Source: a virus. From it: DNA of 28,377 nt. The notes beneath the pieces are model-generated. The model ran no database searches, was not told the origin of the DNA, and saw only the letters and a list, made by a program, of their open reading frames with translations. The DNA lies in the IMG/VR virus record IMGVR_UViG_3300044990_001019, positions 1 to 28,377 of that record. One strand, given 5' to 3'. The position numbers and the translations under genes were made by a program. Shown one piece after another: positions 7,167 through 28,213 of the stretch. Each line of letters begins with the position of its first letter. Position 1 is the stretch's first letter.

Positions 7167-9281
7167 ATGCCCGTAGTCCCGAGGAACACGACCAATCAAA
7201 CCCGCGTAGAGCGGCTTCCAGGCGTCCGCAGCGTAAGCCCCCAGGGTGCCGAGGGTATCGGGGCGCAGGCGGCAGCCGTGGACCGTCAGGCCGATCTGGC
7301 TGGCGGCTACGCTCGTGCCATCGGAAACCGGGGCGAGTCGTTTCAGAACGTGTTCGCCAACACAGCCGCGTCCGCCATCATGGTAGACCGCGTGCAGCGC
7401 ATCCGCGAGGCCAAGCAGGTCGATGAGATTGAAACGCTTTGGAACTCGCACATGTTCAACACGCTCACCGGGGGCGTGGACCCGGCCACCGGCCAGCGCA
7501 TTCCCGGCACGCTCGACACGCCGTTCAACCCGAAGGGCGAGGACGGCACCAAGGGAACCAGCGCCGAAGAGGCTACCACCACCGCGCACGCCGAATGGAT
7601 GCAGGACGAGAGCGGCCCCCTGCGTAAACTCGCGCCACGCGCCCAGGAGTCGTTCAAGCAGCGCGTCGCCAACCGGTTTGAGTCGTTCCGGCAGACCGCC
7701 CGCGAACGCGACGCGCAGAACATCGCCGCCCGCAGCAAGATTATCGACGAAGCTGCATCCGAGTCGAATAAGCGGTTCGTCGCCATGGCAGCCGGCGACA
7801 TCACCGGGACCAAGTGGTCCGACGCCAACGCCATCGGACGCACCCAACACGCCATGCGTATGACCCGGAATATTCAGGTTGATCCCGGAAACAACGACCC
7901 CGCAAAGCTCGCCTTCAGAATCCCCGAGGGCGAGGCGCTGTTCAATCAGAAAATGCGCGAATTCGACGCCGAGTCCGCAAGCCAGCGAGTCGGCACACTT
8001 CTCCAAATGGCGGACGCCGAACCCATCGGCACGCCCGAGAACGACGCCAGGGCCAAGGCGCTGACCGACTACGCCGTCAACTTCGCGCAGGGCTGGCCCA
8101 AGGAAGGCGAGCCGATCCTTACGCCCGACGCCATCGCCAAGGCCAAAGACGCCGCGCAGAAGATCGCAGCGGAACGCACCCGTCGAATCGCCTACCAGCG
8201 CGAGGTGAACTTTTCCGAGGCAAAGACGGTCGCAGCCGCCATCGTCAAAGGCACCGAACGCGACCCGGCCAAGCTCGAAGCCGCGATCCTGAAACTTGAG
8301 CCGACGCACCGTGCCGAGTTGAAGCGGTTCACGCTAGACGCCCGCGCCGCCGAGGACAAGATTCAGTTCGAGAAGTCTTGGAACAGCTACCTGCTGGCCG
8401 GCCATGACCGCATGAAGGCAGCGAACGATGAGGTCGAGAACACTATCGCCGCCATGGTGACGACCGAAGGCCGCACCCACGCGAAGAAAATGGTTCTTGA
8501 CCATCAGTCCGCGCAGGAGTCCGCAGCGAAATCCGACCGGGCTGAAGCGAAGGCCGAGCAGCGCGAACGCGAGGAAGCGGAGAAGGAAGCCGCCAGGGCC
8601 ACCCGCACCGCGTCCAAGGTTGCGCTCGACAGCGGTATCACGCTCACGACGGACGGCCAGGTCATCGCCATCCCGGAATACGACCAGATCGACCAAGGCT
8701 TGTCGCTTCTCAAGTCCGGCGCGATCACGCCGGCAGACTTCCAGGAGTTCAAGGCCAATCTCGGCAAGAAGCGCGTGGAGCCGGTTGTCGCAGACCGCGT
8801 GCTGAAGCTCATCAGCTCAAAACTCGGCATCGAGAACGCCGAAACGCTGTTCGATTACAGCACGACGAAGAACGGGTTTGAACTCGCCACCGTCACGAAG
8901 AAGGGCAAGCAGCAGCCCGTCATGGACCCGACCGACGAAGCCGCCGTTCTCAAGTGGCAGGACGAAAAGGGCAAGGCCAGGAAAACACGCCTGTCCGCTC
9001 AGATCGTCGGCGACCTGCTCAATGCCGCCATGGCCTACGAAATGCAGGTAAAGCCGAAGGACACAACCGGCAGGCCGCCCATGTCCCTCGAAGAACACCT
9101 GTCGTCCATGCTCGCGCCCGAGACGAACGGAGCCGTCCGCGAACTCATGGAGCAGAACGTCCGCGACAACATCGAAGAGAACAGCGGCTTGCTTCGCGAT
9201 ATTCAGGCCATGCTCTCGGAACAGGAATTCCGGGCCGCCGTCCAGGGACTCGAAAAGGGGAAAGCCAATGCCAACGATTAA
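7167..9281 (+). CDS. Ejection protein, T7 gp15-like (internal virion protein C)
   Basis: A 704-residue protein; T7 gp15 has 747. It starts at ATG 7167 after AGGAGA. It is soluble, highly charged and mainly helical, with a long coiled-coil-like stretch around residues 380-480 (many Ala, Glu, Lys, Arg, for example EQREREEAEKEAARA). The N-terminal 90 residues contain a Gln/Ala-rich region (GAQAAAVDRQADLAGGYARA) typical of these proteins. No enzyme motif is seen. In T7 the protein forms the periplasmic tunnel with gp16. The gene overlaps the gp16-like gene by 14 bases, so the two are translationally coupled. The assignment rests on size, composition and gene order. Confidence 0.75.
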   Translation: MPVVPRNTTNQTRVERLPGVRSVSPQGAEGIGAQAAAVDRQADLAGGYARAIGNRGESFQNVFANTAASAIMVDRVQRIREAKQVDEIETLWNSHMFNTLTGGVDPATGQRIPGTLDTPFNPKGEDGTKGTSAEEATTTAHAEWMQDESGPLRKLAPRAQESFKQRVANRFESFRQTARERDAQNIAARSKIIDEAASESNKRFVAMAAGDITGTKWSDANAIGRTQHAMRMTRNIQVDPGNNDPAKLAFRIPEGEALFNQKMREFDAESASQRVGTLLQMADAEPIGTPENDARAKALTDYAVNFAQGWPKEGEPILTPDAIAKAKDAAQKIAAERTRRIAYQREVNFSEAKTVAAAIVKGTERDPAKLEAAILKLEPTHRAELKRFTLDARAAEDKIQFEKSWNSYLLAGHDRMKAANDEVENTIAAMVTTEGRTHAKKMVLDHQSAQESAAKSDRAEAKAEQREREEAEKEAARATRTASKVALDSGITLTTDGQVIAIPEYDQIDQGLSLLKSGAITPADFQEFKANLGKKRVEPVVADRVLKLISSKLGIENAETLFDYSTTKNGFELATVTKKGKQQPVMDPTDEAAVLKWQDEKGKARKTRLSAQIVGDLLNAAMAYEMQVKPKDTTGRPPMSLEEHLSSMLAPETNGAVRELMEQNVRDNIEENSGLLRDIQAMLSEQEFRAAVQGLEKGKANAND

Positions 9282-12200
9282 AGAACGCCGCGAAGGTTAC
9301 AGGTCATCGGACGCGCAGCGGGTTCAGGGGGCGCTCAGCGTCCCCGACTTCGCCACCGACGACCAGAAGTTCAGCGCCGCTCGTGATCTTATGCGGACCG
9401 TCACAGGCATGGACTCCCAAGACGGCTCGATCATCAACAAGGGCAAGCCGCTCGCCGCTGACGAGTTCCTGGGCCGGATGCGGAAGGTCGTATCGGACGG
9501 GCTCGGCACGCTCGAAACCGACGCATCGCGCACATGGAACGCGCTACCCGACGACGAGGAAGCCCGATACACCCACGCAGCCGGCCAGCTCGACTGGTGG
9601 AAGCGCAACGTATCCGCCAAGGGAGCCCGCGCCGTGGACACGTTCAGCACCGTGGACGAGCGAGAATTACCAGAGGACGCCACCCCCGAGGACCGCGAGC
9701 TCGTGAAGCGCCACAAGTACGCGAGCGACTATTTCAAGGCGTCGTCGGTGTCGGAAGGTGCAGCGGTGGACCTGGCCGCCCCCGAGCCGTTTACCCCGGA
9801 GCAGGCTCAGCGGTTCACCGTGCTCAAGGACCGGATCGCCAAGCGCCGCACCATCCGCGAGTACAACGCCGCCATGCAGGCCGAGAACGTGGCACTGCAA
9901 TACACCCTCATCAAAGACGAGCTGTCGGAGCCCGCCCGCGAAATCGCCAAGGCGGCGCTGCGGACCAACAAAATGCCGCAGCACATGGTCGAGCAGTTCA
10001 GCCGGCTGCCCCTCGTCGAGCAGCAGTACGTTTCATCGCTCGTCTATGGGGCTAAGCACGCCAGCACGGACGGGGTCATGTTGACCGCTGGAAAGCAGTT
10101 CATGAACACGGCCCTTGACATCCCCGTCAAGGCCAGCCGCGCCCTATTCACCGACAGCGTTAAGCGCCAATTTATGACCGACGGCGAGTTCAACCGCTTC
10201 GCACAGACCCGCGCCCTGCTCATGGAAGCCCAGGCCGACAAGCTGCCCGAGTTCGGCGGGTTCGGTAGCGCCGTTGTCGGGCTCGCCTCGACGCTGCCCT
10301 ACATGGGATACGCCTCGATCCCCTACGCGGGAATCGGGCTCGTCGCCGGGTCAGCAGCCGACGACTTCGAGCGCCGCGTTGCCGCCGAGGGTGGCGACGT
10401 GACCAGCCTCGAATTCCGGGCCGCGAAGATTGCCACGGCTACCGCCTACGCCATGACCGAGCGGCTACAGGCCGACAAGGCGTTTAGACTCCCGTCCGCC
10501 ATGCAGAAGCGGCAGGCGTTTCTCGGCTTCTGGCGGTCCGCCTACAAGGTCGCCCAGGTCGGCAAAGACTTTGCGGCTACGACCGGCGCGGAACTCGGCC
10601 AGGAGGGCATGCAGGCAGCCATGGAGGACGGCTTTGTCGCCTACGGGCTGGACCGAAACATCGCCCGCGAGGCTGTTCAAGGCGGGCTTCAGGAGCTCAA
10701 GGAAGCCGCAGGCACGATGTTACTAACCAGCGCTGTAGGGTCCGCAGGAAAAGCCATCAGGATCAACGCATCGAAGCGGCTCAGCGTCGAAGAAATGATA
10801 TCCTCGCACCTGCACCGTATCCAGTTGCGCGAAGCCTACACCGCAGGCGACCGCAAGGGAATCACCGAGAGCCGCGCCGCCATCGGCGAGCTGTTTGAAA
10901 AGTGGTATCGGGCAGGGAGCCGCGACAATGCCGTCGCCGAGTTTAAGCGAATCGGCTTCCACCCGGACGAGGCAGGCCGCATGGCCGACACGTTCAACAT
11001 CGAATATCGCACCATTATGGAGTCCGACCAGTTCACGCCCGAGCAAAAACGCGATATCATCGGCGGCGACTCGGACCCGCGCGGACTGGTCCTCAAGCTC
11101 ATGCCGGACGCCCAGATCGAGGAGGGCGAGGACGGCGCGTTCTCGTTCTCCCGCGACATGAACGGCACCAGGCAGACGTACAGCGTTCAGTTCGACGGCG
11201 GGGGCAAGTTCGACGCCAGCACCCCGGAAGCAGCCGCCAGCGTCTCGCAGGCGCTCAAGGGCAGGGGCGTTGAGATCACGCCCGAAGAATGGCTTGCCAC
11301 GCCCGAGGAAAACCGCAAGGCCCTCATCGACGAGCACGGACTCAGGAAGAACGGATTCTTCTCGCCAGTCGCCCCCGGCGTGACCGAAGGCTCGCTCGGC
11401 GTGCTGGCCGGCACCATCCACCTCGACCGCGCAGCGCACCCGGCGACCCTGTTCCACGAGTATTTCCACGGCTTCGCCCGGATGCTCCGCGACAACGGGG
11501 TCATGACCGACGCCGACGTGTCCAAGGCGGTCGAGGAATTCGGACCCGCCCAGGCCCCCGGCGAGCTATTCAACGAGGAAGCCGCCGCCGACGCGTTCAG
11601 GGACTTCGCCACGGCCCGTTCCAACCCGAAGCCTGGGAGCGTTCTCGGCCACATCTGGAACGCCCTGGCCGCCCTTGTGAACGGCATATCGCGCTCCAAG
11701 AACCGCAAGGCCGCCAGCGAGAAGGCCACCACGACGCGCGAAGCCATGTTCGAGCAGGTTCTCAGGGGCAATTTCACCGGAATCCCGGTCGCCACCATCC
11801 CGACCGCAGCCACGGCCACCACCCTAAAAACCCCTGCAAAAGCCTCGTTTTCTCAAAATCAACTTGCTACGGTTGCAAGTTCAACTGGAAACCGTTACCA
11901 GTTCAAGGCGGGCGATACCGTCACCGGAACGCGGGTCAACAAGGCCGGCGAGCGCACCAAGGGGCGCACCGGAACCGTGCTCGACTCCGGTCCGGACGGA
12001 TACCGCGTGAAGTGGGATAATGGCACGACCAGCACGCACCCCGAGTCGTTCTTCTTCCAGGAGTCGGCCCCACCCATGCGTCCGACGCTCACAGGCGACG
12101 CGGGCGGGGTCAGCTTCGCGCCAGTGACCGCCAAGCTCGCCGCCGAGGAATCGGCCAAGGTCGCCGCCATCAAGGGCGCACAGGGCCGTTTTGAGGCCAC

Positions 12201-15200
12201 CACGCCGGACGGCAGCATGAAGGTGGGCGGGTATTGGGCTGCCATGGACCTCGGCGACATCATCACGAGCGACCGGCCCGGATACGACGCGCGGCTCCAG
12301 GGCCGCAACCGCGAAGGCATCGCGAGCCGTATCCAGATAAACGAGATCGCCAACAACGTGCAGCCGTCCCGCCTGTTCGAGTCTCCCGAGACGGACGGCG
12401 GCGCCCCGCTTCTCACGCAGTCCATGAACGTGCTGTCGGGGAATGGCCGCGTGCTGGCCCTCCGCCAGGCGGAACGGCTCGGCAAGCTCGACGACTACGA
12501 CCGATGGGTCCGCGTCATGGCGCAGGAAATGGGGCTCGACGTGGCCGACATGCGTCGCCCGGTCCTCGTTCGTATCATCGACTCGACGACCGACCAGGCC
12601 GAGCTGACCCGCATCAGCGAGCTCAGCAACCGCCCCCGCATCCTCGCCAGGAGCCCCGCCGAGACAGCCGAGGCCGACGCTGCTGCGATCATCGAAGGCG
12701 GCTTGCTGGCCCTCTACGCACCCGACGCGAACGGCAACATATTCGCCGCCAGCAACCGCGAGTTCCTGGGCGCATTCATCCGCGCCGTGAACGACGACGC
12801 CATGATCGACAGCACCGGCAAGCCGACCGACGAGGCAGGCGACCGGGTGCGCCGCGCCATGCTCGCCATCATCGCCGGACGCGGCCCGGACTCCCGCAAC
12901 GTCGTTCGCGCCCTCGTGGAGAACTCCCGCGCGGTCGGCATGGGTCGCATCGTTGACGGCGTGGCGAAGGCAGCCGGCGAGCTCGTGAACCTCGCCGACG
13001 TGAAGCCCGAGTTCTCGATCCTCGACGAGCTCGCCTTCGCCCTGCGCGAGTTCATGCAGTTCAAACTGGACGGCGCCGTGAACGTCGAACAGTGGATCGG
13101 GCAGGCCGACATGCTCCGCCCGCCGCGCCCCGCGATCATCGACAAGATCATCCGCGAAATGGGGAACCGATCGGGGTCCGGCATCTATGCCATGCTCAAG
13201 GACTACACCGACCGCGCCCGCGCACTCGACACCAAGACGGGCGACATGTTCGGAGCCGCGCCGACCAGCAAGGAGGCCGTGCTCGATCTGGCGATCAAGG
13301 CGACGGCGGAAACGGGCGAGCGGTTGAGCGTGAGCGCGGAGAACGTGCGGATCACGGAGCCGGATGCAGTCGGAAGCTCGCACGGTCAATATGACTCCAT
13401 CATCTACGCGAAGGACGGCTCCGATGTTGTCGGATACATCGACCTTTCCGAGTACGACGGGACCATGCAAGCGCGAATGATCGAGGTTGAAGAAGAGTAC
13501 CGCCGCAAGGGAATCGGGACGAAACTGACTCAGGCCGCAGTCGATTACGCCAAGGCCAGAGGCGTCAAGTTCAAGCTGTCGAACACCACCGAGGACGGCA
13601 CCGCGCTTCGCCGCTCACTCAAACGCGCCGGGATTATCCGCTACTCCGTCACCGCCACCCAGGACCGCGCCTATATGGCCGCAGCCGAGGCAGGCGACAC
13701 CGCGACGGCTCAGCGCATGATGGACGAGGCCGCGAAGGCGGCGGGGTATAAAACCGCAGGCTTTCACCAGACTTCAAAGACCGCCATGGAGGCAATTTTC
13801 CGCGAAGGGTTCAGGCTCGACAAGGGCCGCGCCCGCCTCAGCGACGAGCAAGTTCCGGACGGATTCTTTTTCAAGCCGTTCGACAACGATATCGGAGTCG
13901 GGGCAGGCGACAAAAAGGACCAGGCCCAGATTCCGGTTTACCTGAAAATGGATAAAACGCTCGGGCTCATTGACCGGCAGGCGTTCATGAACATCCTCAT
14001 GTTCCTGCCTGAATACAACAGGCTGGAAGGGGAACGCCGAAGTATTGACGCCAAAGAATTAGCCATCAATGACGCGATGGACAAGAAGCTGGTGGAGATC
14101 GCTAAGTCAAACGACAAAGAGGCTTATGGGAAATTGCTCGATGAAATGAGCGATCAGGTAGACGCGTGGGGCGCAAAGATGAAGGACGCCTCCACGGCTA
14201 TGCGACGTGTAATAACTGAATGGATGAAGGCCAAAGGATACGACAGCCTTGAAATTCTCCGCGACACCGGCAGCTTTGGCCGCACGGTTTCCACCATGGT
14301 CGTCCTCGACCCCACCCAAATCAAATCCGCCGACCCGATCACCCGCGACGACTCGGGCCGCATCATCCCCCTGAGCAAGCGGTTTAACGCCGAGTCGGCG
14401 GATATCAGGTATTCCGTGAGTGCGTCAGAAGCCAAAGAATGGAACCGCTCGCTCAATCTGTACGCATCCGGGGAACTCGACACGTCCAAGCCTATAACGG
14501 TGCTCGACGGAACGCCCGTCATCCTTCAACGGTGCGGAGCGGACAACCTGCCTATCACTATCACCAAAACGGCCCTTGACCACAGCATGAGCGGAAAAAC
14601 CGGCGACGATCACGCCGTACCGCTCCGCGAAATGCGAAAGCTGCAGCAGGTGTTGGATGACCCTATCGCCGTGTTCAAATCAAAGAGCGAGCCGGACGCA
14701 CTGGTCATCTATACGGAAATCCTTGAGGGTGGACGCAATACAGTTGTCGCTCTACATCTCGACACGCGAAGCGGACGCCACACTGTCAACGCCGTCAGGA
14801 GTATTTACGGGAAACCGCTTGGCGCTGTTGCAGAGTGGATGAAAGACGGGCTTGCGCTATACGTTCACCAGAAAAAAATAAGCGCCCTGTTCCAGTCCAT
14901 AGGGGTCCAATTCCCCAAGGAGGGTCCAGGGCGCAAAGGGTATCTCACGGAACAGGAATTCAATATACCCCCGTCATCCGGCGATGTCAATACCCCACCC
15001 GCCCCCCGCAACGCCATGGAGGCCACACGCGGGCGCTACTCGCACGAGTCCAACCTAATCGCCAGCGCCGCCGCACGGCTCATCGCCGGGAAGGACGCGC
15101 CGCCCGAGCAATACGACCGGCTCGCCAAGGCGCTCGGCGTTCAGGCGACCGGCGCGGAGATCGTCACCCGCGCCAAGGCGTTCACCGAAGGCGAGGTTGC

Positions 15201-18200
15201 CGCCGCCGCCAAGAAGGCGCTCGCGTCAAAGGACCCCACGGCGGCCATCACCGGCATATCCAAGGCCGTCGAACTTGAGAAGTTCCGCCGCACGGCGACA
15301 GCCGGCGTGAAGAAGGGCGCGGCGCTTGAGCGGCGGCTCTCGGAACTCGGCAAGAAGGCCGAGGACGCGGGGCTCAAGGCCATGCTTGAACAGGTTCGCG
15401 GCGAGAACCTGCAACGGCTCGAAGTGGACACCGGGGCAGACCTGACCGGGACCATGCTCGAAGTGCTGCCCGAAGTGTTCGCCGAGACGCCCCCGAGCAC
15501 CGGCGACACCGGGGCAGAACCGGAACTCATCAACCCCCTCGAATTCGAGCGCGTCGTCACGCAGGAGGAACTCGACGCCCGCGACGAGCGGCTCCGCAAC
15601 GCCGTGGACATGGTGAAGGCGTGGAGCGCCTCCGAACGCGCCGCCCGCGAGAAGCGCATCGCCGAACGCGCCGCGAAGGCCGCAGCGGGTGGCCAGGCCG
15701 ACGAGGACGCCGACGCCGAGCAGCTCGACGACACCGGCGTCATGGTCATCCCCAAGGCGCTGCTTGAAACGGCTCGCGTCAACCTGACCAGCGCCCGCGA
15801 GTTCGCGCACTTCATCCGGCTCTGGATCGGGCAGCACGCGATTGACCGCTCGGCTGGCCGCATCACGGCTCAAACCGTCTGGAAAGACCCGGAGAGCGTC
15901 GAGCTCTACCGCAAGACCGTGGTTCAGCAGCTCACCGATATGGCGGACCGGCTCGTGGACCCCATCGACCGCGCCCTCCCGACCATCAAGACCATCATCG
16001 GCGACATCGTGGCCGGCATGAGCCCCACGCAGATCGAGGGCATGAGCGCCTCGGCCCTGCGCCTCATCCAGAAGAACGCCATCCGGCAGAGCCAGGGCAA
16101 GCTGACCCGCGAACTCGCCACCAACATCGTGAAACTCACGAAGGACGGCAAGGCGTTTGACACGATGAAGGAGGACATAAAGCGGAAGGTGACGGCGGAG
16201 GTCGAACGAGTCGCCCGAAAGCTCGCCAAGATCGTCTTTTACACCGACCGCAAGACCGCTGCCGAGATCGAGCGCCTCGACGCCGAGATCGAAGCCCGCG
16301 AACAGGCGTATGCCAACGTGACAGAACCGGTCGAATCCGACGCGCAATATCACGCCCTGTTCCTTGAGCGCCAGATGGTTGAACGATACGGCGGCCTGCG
16401 CTACCGTATGCCCGCCGACATCCTCAAGGCCAAGGCCGAGATCGAGGATTGGCTCACAGGCGAGAAACAGAAGCTCGTGGACCGAAACGTCCAGCGCGAG
16501 CAGGAAGCCGACCGCCTCTCCAAGGCCCTCACGGCAGGCACCGAACGCGACCCGGAACGCCACGGCAGGCCCGAGCGCGAGACGTTCGCCCAGGGCATGA
16601 AGGACGAGCTTATCGCCACTGTCCGCCAGCGGTTGCAGAACCTCGTGAAGTTCTCGACCGGCACCACGCGCACCGAGGCAAACGAGGCCGTCGAGTTCAT
16701 CGCGCTCACCATGGGGCGTGGCTCGGAACTCTACGCGGCCACCATGGACCGCTACCGCAAAGAATCGGACGCCATCCTTGACGACGTGTCCCAGGGCGAT
16801 CTGTCCGCCTACGTGAAGCACCTCGAAGAGCCGCTCCCGGCAGACGTGGCCCGCGCCGTGGCATCGAAGGAGCAGGGACTCGCCGAGCGCATGACCTACG
16901 GGCAGGCAATCCAGCTTTACGCCTCGATCACCCAGGGCAGCTACACCGAGAGCGTCCTCACCAACGGACGGCAGGAGCACGCCCGTATCCTCGCGGGAGC
17001 ACTCAGCGCGGCAGACTTGCGGCTCGTGGAGAAGCTCCGCAAGCTCTACGCGGCCCGCCGCCTTGAGCTCAGCGAGGTAGTTCAGGAGGTTACAGGCACC
17101 CCCGTATGGTCGCCCGACCCGCTCTATATGCCCGTCAAGATGTTCCTTGGCGCAAAGGGCGGGTTCGCCACGGAGGCCCGCGCCTGGTCCCCGCTGGCCA
17201 AGGCGCTCACGCCGCGCGTGAAGAACCGCCGCGACTTCGACGAGACGTTCGACATCATGTCTATGCTCGCCATGTCGAACGAGCACAGCGCCCGCGCCAT
17301 CGCGTTCGGAACGCGCGGCATCCGGCTCCGGGGTGTCCTGGGCCGCCGCGCCGTGCAGAACGCCATTATCCGCTACCATGGCCGCGAGCAGCTTTCCCGC
17401 CTGCTGGAACAGGTCAACGACCACCTCATCGGGACCGAGCCGCAGCGTGACGCGGGGTCTAAGATGATCAAGATGGCGATGCAGTTGACCACCTTCACGG
17501 CCCTGTCGGGCAACCTGCTAAGCGCCATGAAACAGCTTGGCTCTATCCCGGCCTGGGGGCTCGTGCTCAAAGGCGGACTCGGCGAGGTAGCGGGTCATGT
17601 CCGCAACTTCGACCGGGCGACCGCCGCAGAGCTGGCCGACAGCGACGGCTTCCGCGCCCGGTACGGCGGCGGCATGATGCGCGAAATATCGGAGATCATC
17701 GCAGACGGTCGCGGAAACGTGCTCAAACGCGTCTACATGGCCGGTATGCAGCCCTTACAGGGTGCCGACATGGTGGCGTCACTGCTGGTCGGAACCGGGC
17801 TCTATAAGACCAGGCGCGACGCCTTGGTCAGACAGGGCATGGACCTCATGGATGCGTCCGCGCAGGCCAAGACCGAGACATTCAACCTCATCGAGGAATG
17901 CCAGCAGTCTAGCCGCCCCGAGAACATGCCCCGCGCCATGCGCCGCGACGGCATCGCCTGGCGGTTGCTGATGCAGTTCGCCAGCTCGCCCATGCTCCAA
18001 CTCAGCCACGAAATGCAGGCCGCCCGCGACTGGCGGGCCACGGTGGACCCGGACGGCACCATGAACCTCGCCCAGGTCATCGCCAAGAGCGCCAGCAACG
18101 CCGCGCAGGGGATCGACGACGGACGCGCAAAGCTCGTGCGGTCAATCCTCATCAACCACGCGCTTACACCGGTCATCATGCAGAGCATGAGCAGCCTTTT

Positions 18201-18528
18201 CAACGCCATCCTTGGCGACGACGAGGAACCGGAGGAATTCGCCGCCGAGCTGGCCGTCCAGATGTTCGCAGGTCCGCTCAGCCGGGTGGTATTCTTCGGG
18301 GCCGCGCTCGAAACGATGGCCCGCAGGGTCATCGGAGCGCCCTACAGGGTGCCGCGCACCGTGCCGGCAGAGTCGGCGCTCAGGCTCATCGACAGGGGCT
18401 TCGTGACCGCCACGGACATCCTCACGCTCGACTTCGAGAAGGCGCAGGAGGACCTCGTTAAGATGGTCGAATCGACCGGCGCACCGCAACGGCAGATCAT
18501 CAAGGCCGTGCGGAATTATAGCGAGTAA
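9268..18528 (+). CDS. Giant gp16-like ejection protein / large polyvalent protein
   Basis: A 3086-residue protein, about twice T7 gp16. Modules in order: helical N-region 1-520 with a Gly/Ala hydrophobic stretch (about 329-360); metallopeptidase-like region with HEYFH at 730-734 and a downstream EEAAADAF (770-777) as possible third ligand; SH3/KOW-like segment about 873-935; DdrB-like ParB domain about 986-1330 (SGNGRVLALR, MRRPVLVR); GNAT about 1355-1450 with RRKGIGTKL at 1412-1420; ADP-ribosyltransferase-like module about 1490-1710 (FHQTS 1499-1503, QIKSADPIT near its end); MuF-C/BECR-nuclease-like module about 1735-1890; helical region to about 2700; a C-terminal region (about 2700-3086) resembling the LPD38 end of phage polyvalent proteins, with hydrophobic helices near 2733-2765 and 2992-3020. 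No lytic transglycosylase motif was found at the N-terminus. It probably forms the inner-membrane part of the DNA-ejection machine and delivers enzymes. Domain calls are from remembered motifs. Confidence 0.85.
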   Translation: MPTIKERREGYRSSDAQRVQGALSVPDFATDDQKFSAARDLMRTVTGMDSQDGSIINKGKPLAADEFLGRMRKVVSDGLGTLETDASRTWNALPDDEEARYTHAAGQLDWWKRNVSAKGARAVDTFSTVDERELPEDATPEDRELVKRHKYASDYFKASSVSEGAAVDLAAPEPFTPEQAQRFTVLKDRIAKRRTIREYNAAMQAENVALQYTLIKDELSEPAREIAKAALRTNKMPQHMVEQFSRLPLVEQQYVSSLVYGAKHASTDGVMLTAGKQFMNTALDIPVKASRALFTDSVKRQFMTDGEFNRFAQTRALLMEAQADKLPEFGGFGSAVVGLASTLPYMGYASIPYAGIGLVAGSAADDFERRVAAEGGDVTSLEFRAAKIATATAYAMTERLQADKAFRLPSAMQKRQAFLGFWRSAYKVAQVGKDFAATTGAELGQEGMQAAMEDGFVAYGLDRNIAREAVQGGLQELKEAAGTMLLTSAVGSAGKAIRINASKRLSVEEMISSHLHRIQLREAYTAGDRKGITESRAAIGELFEKWYRAGSRDNAVAEFKRIGFHPDEAGRMADTFNIEYRTIMESDQFTPEQKRDIIGGDSDPRGLVLKLMPDAQIEEGEDGAFSFSRDMNGTRQTYSVQFDGGGKFDASTPEAAASVSQALKGRGVEITPEEWLATPEENRKALIDEHGLRKNGFFSPVAPGVTEGSLGVLAGTIHLDRAAHPATLFHEYFHGFARMLRDNGVMTDADVSKAVEEFGPAQAPGELFNEEAAADAFRDFATARSNPKPGSVLGHIWNALAALVNGISRSKNRKAASEKATTTREAMFEQVLRGNFTGIPVATIPTAATATTLKTPAKASFSQNQLATVASSTGNRYQFKAGDTVTGTRVNKAGERTKGRTGTVLDSGPDGYRVKWDNGTTSTHPESFFFQESAPPMRPTLTGDAGGVSFAPVTAKLAAEESAKVAAIKGAQGRFEATTPDGSMKVGGYWAAMDLGDIITSDRPGYDARLQGRNREGIASRIQINEIANNVQPSRLFESPETDGGAPLLTQSMNVLSGNGRVLALRQAERLGKLDDYDRWVRVMAQEMGLDVADMRRPVLVRIIDSTTDQAELTRISELSNRPRILARSPAETAEADAAAIIEGGLLALYAPDANGNIFAASNREFLGAFIRAVNDDAMIDSTGKPTDEAGDRVRRAMLAIIAGRGPDSRNVVRALVENSRAVGMGRIVDGVAKAAGELVNLADVKPEFSILDELAFALREFMQFKLDGAVNVEQWIGQADMLRPPRPAIIDKIIREMGNRSGSGIYAMLKDYTDRARALDTKTGDMFGAAPTSKEAVLDLAIKATAETGERLSVSAENVRITEPDAVGSSHGQYDSIIYAKDGSDVVGYIDLSEYDGTMQARMIEVEEEYRRKGIGTKLTQAAVDYAKARGVKFKLSNTTEDGTALRRSLKRAGIIRYSVTATQDRAYMAAAEAGDTATAQRMMDEAAKAAGYKTAGFHQTSKTAMEAIFREGFRLDKGRARLSDEQVPDGFFFKPFDNDIGVGAGDKKDQAQIPVYLKMDKTLGLIDRQAFMNILMFLPEYNRLEGERRSIDAKELAINDAMDKKLVEIAKSNDKEAYGKLLDEMSDQVDAWGAKMKDASTAMRRVITEWMKAKGYDSLEILRDTGSFGRTVSTMVVLDPTQIKSADPITRDDSGRIIPLSKRFNAESADIRYSVSASEAKEWNRSLNLYASGELDTSKPITVLDGTPVILQRCGADNLPITITKTALDHSMSGKTGDDHAVPLREMRKLQQVLDDPIAVFKSKSEPDALVIYTEILEGGRNTVVALHLDTRSGRHTVNAVRSIYGKPLGAVAEWMKDGLALYVHQKKISALFQSIGVQFPKEGPGRKGYLTEQEFNIPPSSGDVNTPPAPRNAMEATRGRYSHESNLIASAAARLIAGKDAPPEQYDRLAKALGVQATGAEIVTRAKAFTEGEVAAAAKKALASKDPTAAITGISKAVELEKFRRTATAGVKKGAALERRLSELGKKAEDAGLKAMLEQVRGENLQRLEVDTGADLTGTMLEVLPEVFAETPPSTGDTGAEPELINPLEFERVVTQEELDARDERLRNAVDMVKAWSASERAAREKRIAERAAKAAAGGQADEDADAEQLDDTGVMVIPKALLETARVNLTSAREFAHFIRLWIGQHAIDRSAGRITAQTVWKDPESVELYRKTVVQQLTDMADRLVDPIDRALPTIKTIIGDIVAGMSPTQIEGMSASALRLIQKNAIRQSQGKLTRELATNIVKLTKDGKAFDTMKEDIKRKVTAEVERVARKLAKIVFYTDRKTAAEIERLDAEIEAREQAYANVTEPVESDAQYHALFLERQMVERYGGLRYRMPADILKAKAEIEDWLTGEKQKLVDRNVQREQEADRLSKALTAGTERDPERHGRPERETFAQGMKDELIATVRQRLQNLVKFSTGTTRTEANEAVEFIALTMGRGSELYAATMDRYRKESDAILDDVSQGDLSAYVKHLEEPLPADVARAVASKEQGLAERMTYGQAIQLYASITQGSYTESVLTNGRQEHARILAGALSAADLRLVEKLRKLYAARRLELSEVVQEVTGTPVWSPDPLYMPVKMFLGAKGGFATEARAWSPLAKALTPRVKNRRDFDETFDIMSMLAMSNEHSARAIAFGTRGIRLRGVLGRRAVQNAIIRYHGREQLSRLLEQVNDHLIGTEPQRDAGSKMIKMAMQLTTFTALSGNLLSAMKQLGSIPAWGLVLKGGLGEVAGHVRNFDRATAAELADSDGFRARYGGGMMREISEIIADGRGNVLKRVYMAGMQPLQGADMVASLLVGTGLYKTRRDALVRQGMDLMDASAQAKTETFNLIEECQQSSRPENMPRAMRRDGIAWRLLMQFASSPMLQLSHEMQAARDWRATVDPDGTMNLAQVIAKSASNAAQGIDDGRAKLVRSILINHALTPVIMQSMSSLFNAILGDDEEPEEFAAELAVQMFAGPLSRVVFFGAALETMARRVIGAPYRVPRTVPAESALRLIDRGFVTATDILTLDFEKAQEDLVKMVESTGAPQRQIIKAVRNYSE
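11861..11881. repeat. Perfect 7-bp inverted repeat at a module junction
   Basis: AACTTGC and GCAAGTT flank a 7-base loop inside an AT-rich patch (about 11817-11885) of the giant ejection gene. The encoded peptide is a Thr/Ala/Ser linker lying exactly between the metallopeptidase-like region and the SH3/KOW-like segment. It may be a recombination scar left by module exchange. It could also be chance in low-complexity coding DNA. Confidence 0.35.
13624..14999 (+). other. Lower-GC effector cassette inside the giant ejection gene (ART-like and MuF-C-like modules)
   Basis: Within the 3086-residue protein, residues about 1457-1910 hold the ADP-ribosyltransferase-like and MuF-C/BECR-like modules. 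The cassette is bounded and divided by Arg-Tyr-Ser motifs (1458-1460, 1714-1716, and RYS again at 1923-1925 just downstream). Hand counts of four 60-base rows (14041, 14101, 14221, 14701) give about 43-55% GC, against about 72% at row 15601. The reading frame is unbroken. Both modules belong to families known from phage polyvalent proteins and toxins. The different composition suggests separate acquisition. Confidence 0.5.
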
Positions 18529-23984: not shown

Positions 23985-24386
23985 CTAATCTCTTCTTCTC
24001 TTATCTGGTGACGGTCTTGTGACGGTGGCACCGTCACGCCTATCTTTCGACGCCCTCGACGCGGCCATGTTACGGGCGTGCAAGGCCCTTTCCTTCGCGC
24101 TCCTTCCGTTGTGAAGCGTCCAACTCACGACCATCGCCCCGTCCGCCGAAAACTCGATCCATCGCACGGTTTCAAGCGATTGACCGATCCCCGGCAGCCC
24201 CGCTTCCTCGTCGCATCCCTTTTTCGTGAGGAACGGCACCCACCCGTCCGCCGTTGTCCGGTCCAGGTACACCCACAACCGGAACCACCGAGCGAACGCC
24301 ACCTCGTTCGACACGCCGCAGTCCGCCGCGATCTTCTTTATCTCGGGCTTCGACGGCGTGTTTTCCTCGACTTTCAGCCAGGCCAT
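23985..24386 (-). CDS. Winged-helix replication-type protein
   Basis: A 133-residue protein whose ATG directly follows the primase stop. It opens WLKVEENTPSKPEIKKIA, then has VAFARWFRLWVYLDR, DGWVPFLTKKG, VRWIEF and SWTLHNGRSAKERAL. This pattern is familiar from phage replication proteins whose N-terminal winged helix resembles replisome organisers. The C-terminal tail is Arg/Lys-rich and comes from a purine-rich DNA tract. It is short, as if lacking a loader domain. With the adjacent primase and helicase, a role in replication initiation or helicase loading is likely. The domain assignment is from pattern memory only. Confidence 0.6.
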   Translation of the reverse strand: MAWLKVEENTPSKPEIKKIAADCGVSNEVAFARWFRLWVYLDRTTADGWVPFLTKKGCDEEAGLPGIGQSLETVRWIEFSADGAMVVSWTLHNGRSAKERALHARNMAASRASKDRRDGATVTRPSPDKRRRD

Positions 24387-25226: not shown

Positions 25227-25570
25227 GCGCCCTCCCTTATAGGCGGCCATATGTCGCACACCCCGAGAATGACGCGCGTGCCGTCTTTATACCACGGCGT
25301 TCCGTGAACAACGCCCATCGCAATCTCAGCCAACCAGCGGCCATCAGGAGTCTGTTCAATCAAAATGCATCGCTCCGTGTATGCGTATATAGTGCCGCCG
25401 GCGGCAAGATCAACGATGCACGAGTCTATGCTGCACGGCTTTCCGGCTTCAGGACCAGACCAACCCCAACACGTCCGCCATGATCGACGCTGAAAATCTT
25501 CCCGAGAATTTCCGCGAAAACGTCTTTGCGCCGCGTCAATGTCGGCAAGAAAATCAAGCTGCTCGTTCAC
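25223..25570 (-). CDS. Hypothetical protein between helicase and primase
   Basis: A 115-residue protein starting at GTG 25570, which overlaps the helicase stop (GTGA), and ending in an ATGA with the primase. It has a Gln/Arg-rich N-terminus, Cys and Trp in TCWGWSG, and a mostly beta C-terminal part (GGTIYAYTERCILIEQT, VILGVCDIWPP). No family is recognised. Placement between two replication genes suggests an accessory role, without direct evidence. Confidence 0.65.
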   Translation of the reverse strand: MNEQLDFLADIDAAQRRFRGNSREDFQRRSWRTCWGWSGPEAGKPCSIDSCIVDLAAGGTIYAYTERCILIEQTPDGRWLAEIAMGVVHGTPWYKDGTRVILGVCDIWPPIREGA

Positions 25571-27221
25571 GCCGCACCCCGCCTGTTTCCGAACACCCGG
25601 TCAAGAGCCCGCGCCGCCTCATCACGCCGCATGGGGGCGGTGAAGCCGTGGCGTTTCAAGTGCTGCGCCTGTTTGAACGACGCGAGCCCGTTGCCCCATC
25701 TGCGAAAGGTCTCGTTCAAGAGCTGCTTCGCCTGGCCGTATGGCAGGGCGGACGGGTCGATCCCCTGCTTCATCAGGATAGCAGCCTGCTTCTCGGACAG
25801 GTGCTTACCCTTGTCCCATCCGCGCTCCATGGCGGGCGAAATATCGAACACGTCGAATGGGTTGACGGTGGACATGGAGTATTTCGCCTTGGCCGTGAGC
25901 GCCGCACGCTTGAACGCCTCCATTTTCTTTTTCGCCTCGATGGCCTTTTGGGCGGCCTTCAAAGCATCGCTCACGTTGACCGGTTTCGATGACTCCTGGG
26001 CCCTGCGGGTCACTTCCGCGATCACCTCGTCGGAATAGTTGCCGCCGAGAATGTCCGCAGGCGTGATCAGTTTGTGACGGCCCGCGTTACCCACAAAGTC
26101 AATGATCTCGCATGACGGCTTGATGCTGCCCGCGATCATGGCACGCCGCGCCTCGGCGTCAGGAACATCGTTCAGGAGGTGAGCCACCGACTCAGCGGGA
26201 CGGGTGCCACGCCCGAGCATTTGAGCGTAAAGCGCCCGCGACTTTGTGGGCCGCCCCATGAACACGATTTCAACGCCGGCATCGTCAAAGCCCTCTGTCA
26301 GGACGCCGACATTCCAGAGAAACTGAATCGCGCCGGATGCGAAGTCAGACAGGATTTTCCGGCGTGCGTCCTTATCGGTTTTGCCGCACACCCAGGCGGA
26401 ACAACCGGGCCGATACGCGGGCCGGTTCATAATCTCGGAGCCGCGTTCGGCTTCAACGACGCTCGCGCAAAACACGATGCCCCTCCGCTTACCCGCAATG
26501 TCAATCATGACATCCGCCATGCCCATGAGGACTTTATCGTCCTCCATGACTTCGGCCAGGTCCGCACCGTTGAAGTCGCCGGCAACCGTGCCGCAGTTGG
26601 AAAGGTCGATCCCTTCAATGTGGACGGGGTGCTGTTCAACCGGAACAAGCCAACCGTCATCAATCGCGTTTAATGTTTCGTAATCAAACGCCACATCGCC
26701 GAACACCTGGCCAAGCGCCTCCTCGTCCTGCCTGTCAGGCGTCGCCGTGACCCCCAATATCTTCAGGTCCGGATTGCCGTCAACGTACCACTTTATGCAG
26801 CGCCGGTAAGACGCGGATACGGCGTGATGCCCCTCGTCGATAACCAAGACCCCAAAGTCCATGGGGTTGAATTTGGTCATGCGCCCGCCGCCATCACCGC
26901 CCGCCGTCTGCGTCTGGATCGTGGACACGACTACCGGAGGCAGGCCCATGAGGGAATGCGTGTCGGCCCTGTATTCCGCCATTTCGACTTGAGCATCCAG
27001 CCCGGTAACGCGCTGGATTTTGTCCTGGGCCTGATAGATGAGTTCCGATCTATGCGCCAGAACGAGCGCCCGCGCAGGCTGCATCCGCCGAATGACTTCC
27101 GCAAACACGATGGTTTTACCTAACCGCACCCCGTCGGCAAAACCAACAGGGTGCTATTTTTCTCCTTCCATTGTTCGAGGACTGATTCGACGGCCTTGAT
27201 TTGGTACGGGCGCAGGTTCAT
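25567..27221 (-). CDS. SF2 DEAD/DEAH-type helicase, reading frame interrupted in Walker A
   Basis: Translation from ATG 27221 (overlapping the ParB-like stop) gives 33 residues: MNLRPYQIKAVE with the Q-type start, then LVLPTGCG, and then TAG at 27120-27122. The rest of the helicase continues in another frame from the GGT at 27118-27120. Dropping five bases between the two GGT codons restores PTGCGKT exactly and yields a 549-residue protein. All other motifs are intact: VLAHRSELIYQ (Ia), IDEGHH (II, residues about 126-131), GVTATPDR (III), and QMLGRGTRP (VI). The C-terminal 150 residues are helical and Lys-rich. It may remodel DNA or recombination intermediates. It is either made by ribosome bypassing, or is a frameshifted pseudogene, or contains an assembly error; restarting at GTG 27129 would lose the P-loop. 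Confidence 0.8.
27111..27145 (-). other. Candidate translational bypass (hop) site with hairpin
   Basis: On the minus strand the order is GGT (27123-27125), TAG (27120-27122) and GGT (27118-27120). The take-off and landing codons are thus identical, five bases apart, with a stop right after take-off. The flanks can form a 10-bp hairpin: UGGUUUUGCC (27136-27145) pairs with GGUAAAACCA (27111-27120), one pair being G·U, enclosing a 15-base loop that contains the take-off codon. The landing GGU is the start of the 3' arm. T4 gene 60 also uses matched Gly codons (GGA), an adjacent UAG and a take-off hairpin, over a 50-base gap. Confidence 0.45.
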
Positions 27222-28213
27222 CCCTTGAGTTCCCCCGGCACCACGTTGTCGAAACGAAACTTGCTCATCATGCCGAGCTTCTTGCACATGGCGCACCCGA
27301 TCCCCTGGCATGACGGGCAGAGGCACCATGGTTCGGCACTGGTCAGCTCTTTGAACGCCATGTCCAAGTGCGACAGCACCGATGAGAAGTTGATTTCACC
27401 GAACAGCGGATCGTTGCCCTCTTGAGCAGCCCGCAGGTCGCACCGGACCTTGCTGACCTGCTTGGCGAGTGCCGACACTTCGCCGCGCCGGTTCCAGACT
27501 TCGACCAGTCCGGGCGGCACCTGCTTCCCGCGCTCGTCGTTCGGCAGGACAGGCGGCGCGGCCTTGCGGGACGGCGCAGGGGGCGCGACGGGCGGACGGA
27601 CGGGCGGCGTGGGGCGGGAAGGGGGCGCGTCGCACATGTCGCCGGACCCGTCCTCGGGGTCGGGATCGGCAGGCGGCGGAGCCGGTCGGCGGGGCGGCGG
27701 AGGGGGCAGCGTGCGGGTTCTGTTGTCAGCTCCCGTCGTTGTTGTTCGATTGGCCCAACTGGCGATTTTCGCCAGTTGACCAGACGCGGTTTCGTGGTTG
27801 CACCCAACCAAATCAGCAATCACGCGAGCCGAAACGTCATCCGGCAGCCCGAGCTTTTTCCGCTGCTCGTAGGCCGTCGAAATAGCCGTCTGCACATCGG
27901 CACGGGTCCGCCTCATGCCGTGCGTCACGTTGGCCCCCAGGGCGGCGCGTAGGGCGTCCACGAACTCGCCGTCCGTCACGTCACAGCACACCTTGGTCTT
28001 GCCGTTCTGACGGTACGCGGCGAGCCGGTGGAAGCCGTCCGCCAGCCAGTACTTGCCGGCTTTGTCGCGGAACACCTCAAGGGGCGGAAACACGGCCTTG
28101 CGCTCGCGTTCGGCCTCGGCATATTCGCGCACGGCGTCCATGTCCAGAGCCGCCCGCATTTGCAGGCCGGTTGTCTGGATCAGTTTGATGTCGATGAATG
28201 TTTTTTTCGGCAT
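27218..28213 (-). CDS. ParB-like protein with HTH and C-terminal zinc motif
   Basis: A 331-residue protein starting at ATG 28213. Residues about 40-72 have the ParB/sulfiredoxin-like core: PPLEVFRDKAGKYWLADGFH, with DGFHRLAAYRQNGK. GMRRTRADVQTAI follows and then a helix-turn-helix (ARVIADLVGCNHETASGQL, about 128-148). A Pro-rich linker (about 165-225) leads to a C-terminal domain whose last 40 residues contain CLCPSC and CAMC, a probable zinc ribbon. It could bind phage DNA for replication control or partition, or act as a ParB-type nuclease. Its stop overlaps the helicase start by four bases. Confidence 0.75.
   Translation of the reverse strand: MPKKTFIDIKLIQTTGLQMRAALDMDAVREYAEAERERKAVFPPLEVFRDKAGKYWLADGFHRLAAYRQNGKTKVCCDVTDGEFVDALRAALGANVTHGMRRTRADVQTAISTAYEQRKKLGLPDDVSARVIADLVGCNHETASGQLAKIASWANRTTTTGADNRTRTLPPPPPRRPAPPPADPDPEDGSGDMCDAPPSRPTPPVRPPVAPPAPSRKAAPPVLPNDERGKQVPPGLVEVWNRRGEVSALAKQVSKVRCDLRAAQEGNDPLFGEINFSSVLSHLDMAFKELTSAEPWCLCPSCQGIGCAMCKKLGMMSKFRFDNVVPGELKG

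Follow-up and report, generated by a model that had tools for sequence, protein, structure and literature searches.

The window, by which we mean the whole stretch of 28,377 nucleotides analysed here, is a phage fragment from the IMG/VR record IMGVR_UViG_3300044990_001019 with a GC content of 62%. A longer record, IMGVR_UViG_3300044987_002232 (44,481 bases), spans it with 100% identity wherever the two were compared. Judged by its integrase, repressor, portal, tail and internal virion proteins, the source looks like a temperate podovirus, and its portal shares 32% identity with that of BPP-1. A 3,086-aa protein with ddrB-ParB, GNAT acetyltransferase and MuF_C domains (positions 9268-18528) is presumably an injected polyvalent protein. 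Furthermore, two neighbouring genes at 1533-2651 match the same tail-protein family, phrog_394, and the replication-initiation protein at 23985-24386 consists of the N-terminal domain alone, with 133 aa compared to about 310-330 aa in its homologues.

On the minus strand this phage carries an SF2 helicase gene that is split into two out-of-frame ORFs of one protein (Table 1). The first frame, MNLRPYQ…LLVLPTGCG, is closed by a TAG. The second frame, which lies five bases past the stop and reads GKTIVFAEVIRR..., goes on with GKTIVF…; after the landing GGT it continues with AAA ACC and so on through 516 codons, helicase motifs intact, to the TGA at 25569-25567. The PF04851 match, which leaves the first frame at position 35, is taken up in the second at position 35 and extends to 164, with zero profile positions missing across the join. 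The take-off and landing codons, both GGT, can be read by the same tRNA. A preliminary description had placed the stop inside PTGCGKT in a GGT-TAG-GGT layout, and reading of the minus strand confirmed this as well as the integrity of the other helicase motifs and of the 516 downstream codons. Its further statement that a GGT-to-GGT hop over five bases would rebuild the P-loop with no residue gained or lost is in keeping with the profile join. No terminator was found at the interruption site in a terminator scan, and the 44-kb record contains no second ResIII-type helicase.

Table 1. Features of the interrupted helicase gene and its surroundings (positions in the window)
Feature	Position	Strand	Remarks
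Upstream ParB-like gene	27218..28213	-	its TGA overlaps the helicase ATG as ATGA
Helicase start ATG	27221-27219	-	ATGA overlap with the TGA of the upstream gene; translation-coupled start
ORF1, helicase N-terminus to take-off codon (MNLRPYQIKAVESVLEQWKEKNSTLLVLPTGCG, 33 codons)	27123..27221	-	PF04851 positions 2-35
13-bp mRNA hairpin	27126..27154 (5' arm 27154-27142, loop TTT, 3' arm 27138-27126)	-	-22.6 kcal/mol
Take-off codon GGT (Gly of PTGCG)	27123..27125	-	GGN here in 14/14 interrupted records
UAG stop adjoining the take-off codon 3'	27120..27122	-	TA is the sole dinucleotide in real split helicases
Five-base insert TAGGT (= GGTTA at 27121-27125)	27118..27122	-	absent from intact homologues
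Landing codon GGT	27118..27120	-	begins at the last base of the UAG
ORF2, rest of the SF2 helicase (516 codons + TGA)	25567..27117	-	motifs intact

Of 160 homologous helicase loci fetched for comparison, 154 carry an uninterrupted G-x-G-K-[TS], and the five-base insert is absent from all 160. The plain motif in these relatives weighs against a hop, as the preliminary description had anticipated for an uninterrupted GGT-AAA. It is not decisive, because T4 gene 60 likewise stands alone among its relatives (PMC3014915). Four of the 160 (L048, L050, L100 and L122) contain inteins of 340-349 aa with a LAGLIDADG-type domain at PTG^CGKT, a position six bases ahead of where the 5-nt insert sits. The window's site is not an intein: its insert measures 5 nt, and neither LAGLIDADG_3 nor HNH is matched in the 44-kb record. 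In simulations, 83% of 5-nt tandem duplications were hop-compatible, so that a small duplication brings matched codons with it at little cost. The 154 intact homologues and these freely available matched codons had at first led to the conclusion of a private frameshift allele, which was dropped after the interruption was seen to recur in IMG/VR. DNA and protein searches for nearer relatives of the window's gene returned the near-duplicate record IMGVR_UViG_3300044987_002232 alone. The nearest relative of its helicase that was found, L012, is 56% identical, and selection after insertion is thus unmeasurable in the window's gene.

Scanning IMG/VR with PTGxG-TAG-(+5)-GKT patterns, which called for a GGN landing codon at +5 and thereby preset the hop length and the glycine match, resulted in 11 loci for CCNACNGGNNNNGGNTAGGNAARAC, 8 of them helicases broken identically at the same codon, and, when broadened, in 14 records of SF2 helicases with GGN-TA-GGN-AAR at the same Walker A codon. 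These were the window's phage (L172), L178, L179 and the identical L180, L181, L183, L184, L186, L215, L234, and the L213 clade (L213, L242, L243 and L254), representing about nine lineages if L234 is counted with the L213 clade. Hence the GGT-TAG-GGT arrangement that the preliminary description had suggested looking for in other helicases does recur, in the form GGN-TAG-GGN. Pfam assigned every downstream frame tested to the SF2 helicases, and the interrupted helicases are mostly 20-50% identical to one another. L178 and L183, which share 44% identity, are each nearer to intact relatives (71% and 49%, respectively) than to each other; thus, the interruption arose several times. Separate gains are also implied by the nearer intact relatives L012, L115, L039 and Cellulophaga phi46:1. 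Take-off and landing codon do not share their third base in L183, P12024, L215 and the L213 clade. Several hits were rejected: L212, L214, L255 and L259 are false positives whose other frame holds an intact SNF2-type GLGKT, and L182, L185 and L187 are chance matches. In bacteria, 791 genomes from the classes to which G002 (an Oscillospiraceae MAG) and G003 (Lederbergia) belong contained no split helicase and gave 3 chance matches, fewer than the reversed-pattern control. The papers that were searched contain no description of bypass in phage helicases, and none of the listed P12024L papers treats this topic, judging by its title.

When the dinucleotide between the glycine codons was left open (CCNACNGGNNNNGGNNNGGNAARACNNT, all 16), 28 loci were obtained. 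The real split helicases among these belong to six lineages, all with TA, which is the sole dinucleotide making a stop codon at the site. None of the other 15 dinucleotides gave a real split helicase; the remaining loci are chance matches or SNF2-type P-loops that are intact and were read out of frame. Assuming uniform dinucleotides, the probability of six of six TA under random insertion is estimated at ~6e-8.

The 3' end of the window's 13-bp hairpin adjoins the take-off codon, and this hairpin is the dominant structure of the site (p of 1e-4 or less under synonymous resampling). Of 2,630 windows in the genes of the phage, 0 match its synonymous z-score of -4.8, and its three G.U pairs fit the sense strand only. 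In contrast to the 5' stem-loop of T4, it should be melted inside the ribosome at take-off, with -4.7 to -5.4 kcal/mol left when 12-15 nt are occluded. The preliminary description had instead drawn a 10-bp hairpin across the site (27111-27145), the 3' arm of which includes the landing codon. This structure can form (-12.0 kcal/mol as drawn; -15.7 kcal/mol for the best fold of the stretch) but is the wrong one to regard as the key structure: as a stimulator it was rejected, the same arms pairing at -12 or better in 8% of the intact homologues.

Hairpins of 13-15 bp whose 3' end adjoins or enters the take-off codon were found in five lineages. For the 36 bases ending with the take-off codon, the fold energies are -24.0 (L172), -26.7 (L178), -28.5 (L179), -25.1 (L183) and -19.7 kcal/mol (L215), and synonymous codon resampling gave p values of 1e-4 to 3e-4 for each of L172, L178, L179/L180, L183 and L215. 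The mean of 159 intact homologues is -8.6 kcal/mol, with -19 reached by a single one (L152), and the fold of intact relatives that share 71% identity with L178 amounts to -7.5 kcal/mol. Read on the sense strand, all 12 wobble pairs of the five lineages are G.U, and each of the five hairpins folds less strongly as antisense, which argues that the hairpins act as mRNA. The differing pairing registers (36, 36, 37, 36 and 33) indicate that they arose separately. In 5 of 10 groups, namely L181, L184, P12024, L234 and the L213 clade, the 5' hairpin is absent (p > 0.06, synonymous resampling). These cases are AT-rich (GC 0.29-0.36) and must rely on another stimulator or need nothing further. L152 is intact and lacks the insert, and it has nearly the same strong P-loop hairpin (-25.5 kcal/mol); it is possibly a precursor or a revertant of a hop site.

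Members of the L213 clade are 57-82% identical, with dS above 1 and dN/dS of about 0.13-0.29. The insert is kept throughout: all of them read GGA TTC GGG [TA] GGT, and together with their relative L234 they all retain [GGG/GGT]TAGGT. ORF1 is conserved in the clade as Q-motif plus P-loop. The contigs of these four contain in-frame TGA where relatives have Trp, as in code 4; UAG at the hop site is still a stop in this TGA=Trp clade. Furthermore, L186 corresponds to the genome of P12024L, which is a cultured phage, and a second cultured phage, P12024S, has the same insert. Their helicases differ by 41 substitutions (25 synonymous, 16 not; dN/dS about 0.17), with the insert kept. In the L213 clade as well as in the P12024 pair, the insert is retained under purifying selection and not in a state of decay.

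One competing explanation is an inactivating frameshift. Here a private or hot-spot 5-nt insertion, resulting from slippage at the hairpin base or left as an end-joining scar at a homing-endonuclease site, would have given rise to dead alleles with no rescue. Small duplications yield matched codons automatically, the LAGLIDADG inteins at PTG^CGKT in homologues mark the site as a known cutting target, and a polymerase could stall at the hairpin. However, random insertion would be served by the 15 other dinucleotides, whereas TA (UAG) alone is seen; the downstream frame is under purifying selection in diverged lineages; the hairpins fit the mRNA strand rather than DNA and are missing in half of the cases; and no template for the insert of at least 7 nt exists within 3 kb. 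We therefore consider inactivation unlikely. The slippage or assembly error that the preliminary description had allowed for likewise fails to explain the recurrence, the TA-specificity, the hairpins, the selection and the presence in cultured phages.

In the genomes of P12024L (L262, NC_018272 16629-22279) and P12024S (L263, NC_018271), the helicase is annotated from an internal ATG past the P-loop. This would be in line with internal initiation, in which translation of ORF2 would begin anew past the stop to give a deliberately P-loop-less helicase, and the window (GTG CGG TTA), L178 and L183 have a GTG in frame shortly before the landing codon. On the other hand, there is no ATG, GTG or TTG at this place in L179, L181, L184 and the L213 clade, the product would be without the Walker A glycines though the other helicase motifs remain, Q-motif and P-loop are conserved in ORF1 of the L213 clade, and the TA-specificity would have no reason. 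Internal initiation thus appears quite improbable, and the P-loop-less annotation of the two P12024 helicases is explained by the hop site. That a strong inverted repeat misled sequencing or assembly is hardly credible: all cases but P12024 are metagenome assemblies, but the five extra bases are present in both IMG/VR records that contain the window, in L179/L180 from two metagenomes and in genomes of cultured phages that were submitted independently, and half of the cases have no hairpin.

Recurrence, UAG-specificity, convergent hairpins, purifying selection and two cultured phages together support the programmed ribosome hop put forward in the preliminary description. On this comparative sequence evidence, we regard it as likely that the site is a programmed short translational bypass, or stop-hop, from GGN to GGN over UAG that rebuilds PTGxGKT, and ribosomes probably hop over five bases in these phage helicases. 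The ribosome would translate ORF1 up to the Walker A glycine, so that GGT occupies the P site and UAG enters the A site, where the stop codon is expected to cause a pause, as in gene 60 (PMC5009743, PMC11194080). The peptidyl-tRNA-Gly would then release, the mRNA would advance by five bases, and the tRNA would re-pair with the second GGT. Decoding would restart at AAA (Lys), resulting in LPTGCGKT with the residue count unchanged. No re-pairing other than the +5 step from GGN to GGN brings back the frame in every case together with the exact PTGxGKT. Frameshifting by -1 (or +2) before the stop, for which the open -1 frame across the window's site might be cited, is most improbable, since a shift back by one base would put the P-site tRNA for GGN on CGG in the window and on AGG in L181, with which it cannot re-pair, a shared slippery heptamer is absent, the stimulator lies upstream and the P-loop of the product would be two residues longer.

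In the window and four other lineages, the likely stimulator of the proposed stop-hop is the strong mRNA hairpin reaching the take-off codon. Its top, which in the window would reach about -18 after a move by five bases, should leave the mRNA exit channel about when this move is done. Refolding could then hold the ribosome at the landing site as a pawl against backsliding, a step we infer and a role that, by analogy, could be comparable to that of the 5' stem-loop of T4 gene 60. The efficiency of the hop may differ between lineages. It might serve to hold the helicase at a level that is low or RF1-sensitive, or to preserve an insert by which a homing endonuclease is blocked.

Among phages, efficient natural bypassing has so far been known essentially from T4 gene 60. 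The sites described here share with it a glycine take-off codon, a UAG directly 3', a matched glycine landing codon and, in five lineages, a 5' mRNA stem-loop, the interruption of an invariant catalytic motif (ORF1 of T4 ends in DADHDG, here in PTGCG), and the occurrence of interrupted phages among intact relatives. In contrast, the hop covers 5 nt instead of 50 nt, and the gene encodes a helicase instead of a topoisomerase. The window's take-off stem-loop is weak (-4.3 vs -13.4 kcal/mol in T4), and there is no counterpart of the KKYK nascent-peptide motif, located ~30 residues from the P site in T4, ORF1 being an ordinary helicase N-terminus. The window's hairpin adjoins the take-off codon, with its 3' arm at -13 to -1 as compared to -20 to -10 in T4. 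In our own fold of the T4 5' stem-loop, the uppermost 5 bp occupy -20 to -16, and a further four lie at -13 to -10. The site thus resembles T4 gene 60, to which the preliminary description had likened it, but is devoid of the take-off-stem and nascent-peptide signals. Moreover, several lineages are involved here, whereas the T4 bypass appears to be unique among T4-related phages (PMC3014915).

Stop-hops of +5 and +6 between matched codons in E. coli are known from synthetic constructs (Weiss et al. 1987, as cited in PMC5009743). Our sites have the same codon-stop-codon grammar and hop length, but are natural, retained by selection and in some lineages provided with a selected mRNA hairpin. The byp elements of Magnusiomyces capitatus mitochondria are similar in being short coding inserts to skip, with codons not always perfectly matched (PMC5009743). 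They differ in that they occur in many genes of one mitochondrial genome and have been described as not depending on mRNA context and as linked to an unused A-site codon, whereas we found phages, UAG, one motif and some hairpins. A natural bypass has also been proposed for an essential gene of Streptomyces phage Hau3, that of the terminase (PMC5009743), where it is linked to the rare UUA codon in place of UAG and the Walker A motif. Recurrent short stop-hops would provide comparative data on the minimal needs of bypassing, i.e. UAG between two glycine codons, whether or not a hairpin precedes them, and would make the origin of bypass sites directly testable. They also indicate that gene callers misread hop genes, as for the P12024L and P12024S helicases annotated without a P-loop. 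The gene 60 insert was suggested to give protection against a homing endonuclease (PMC5009743). It may tentatively be speculated that Gly-UAG-Gly bypass repeatedly evolves at glycines of invariant motifs (Walker A; DADHDG), where it would block homing endonucleases or inteins while the hop keeps the protein. If this is true, bypassing is a recurrent adaptation of phages to genetic conflict rather than a curiosity of T4.
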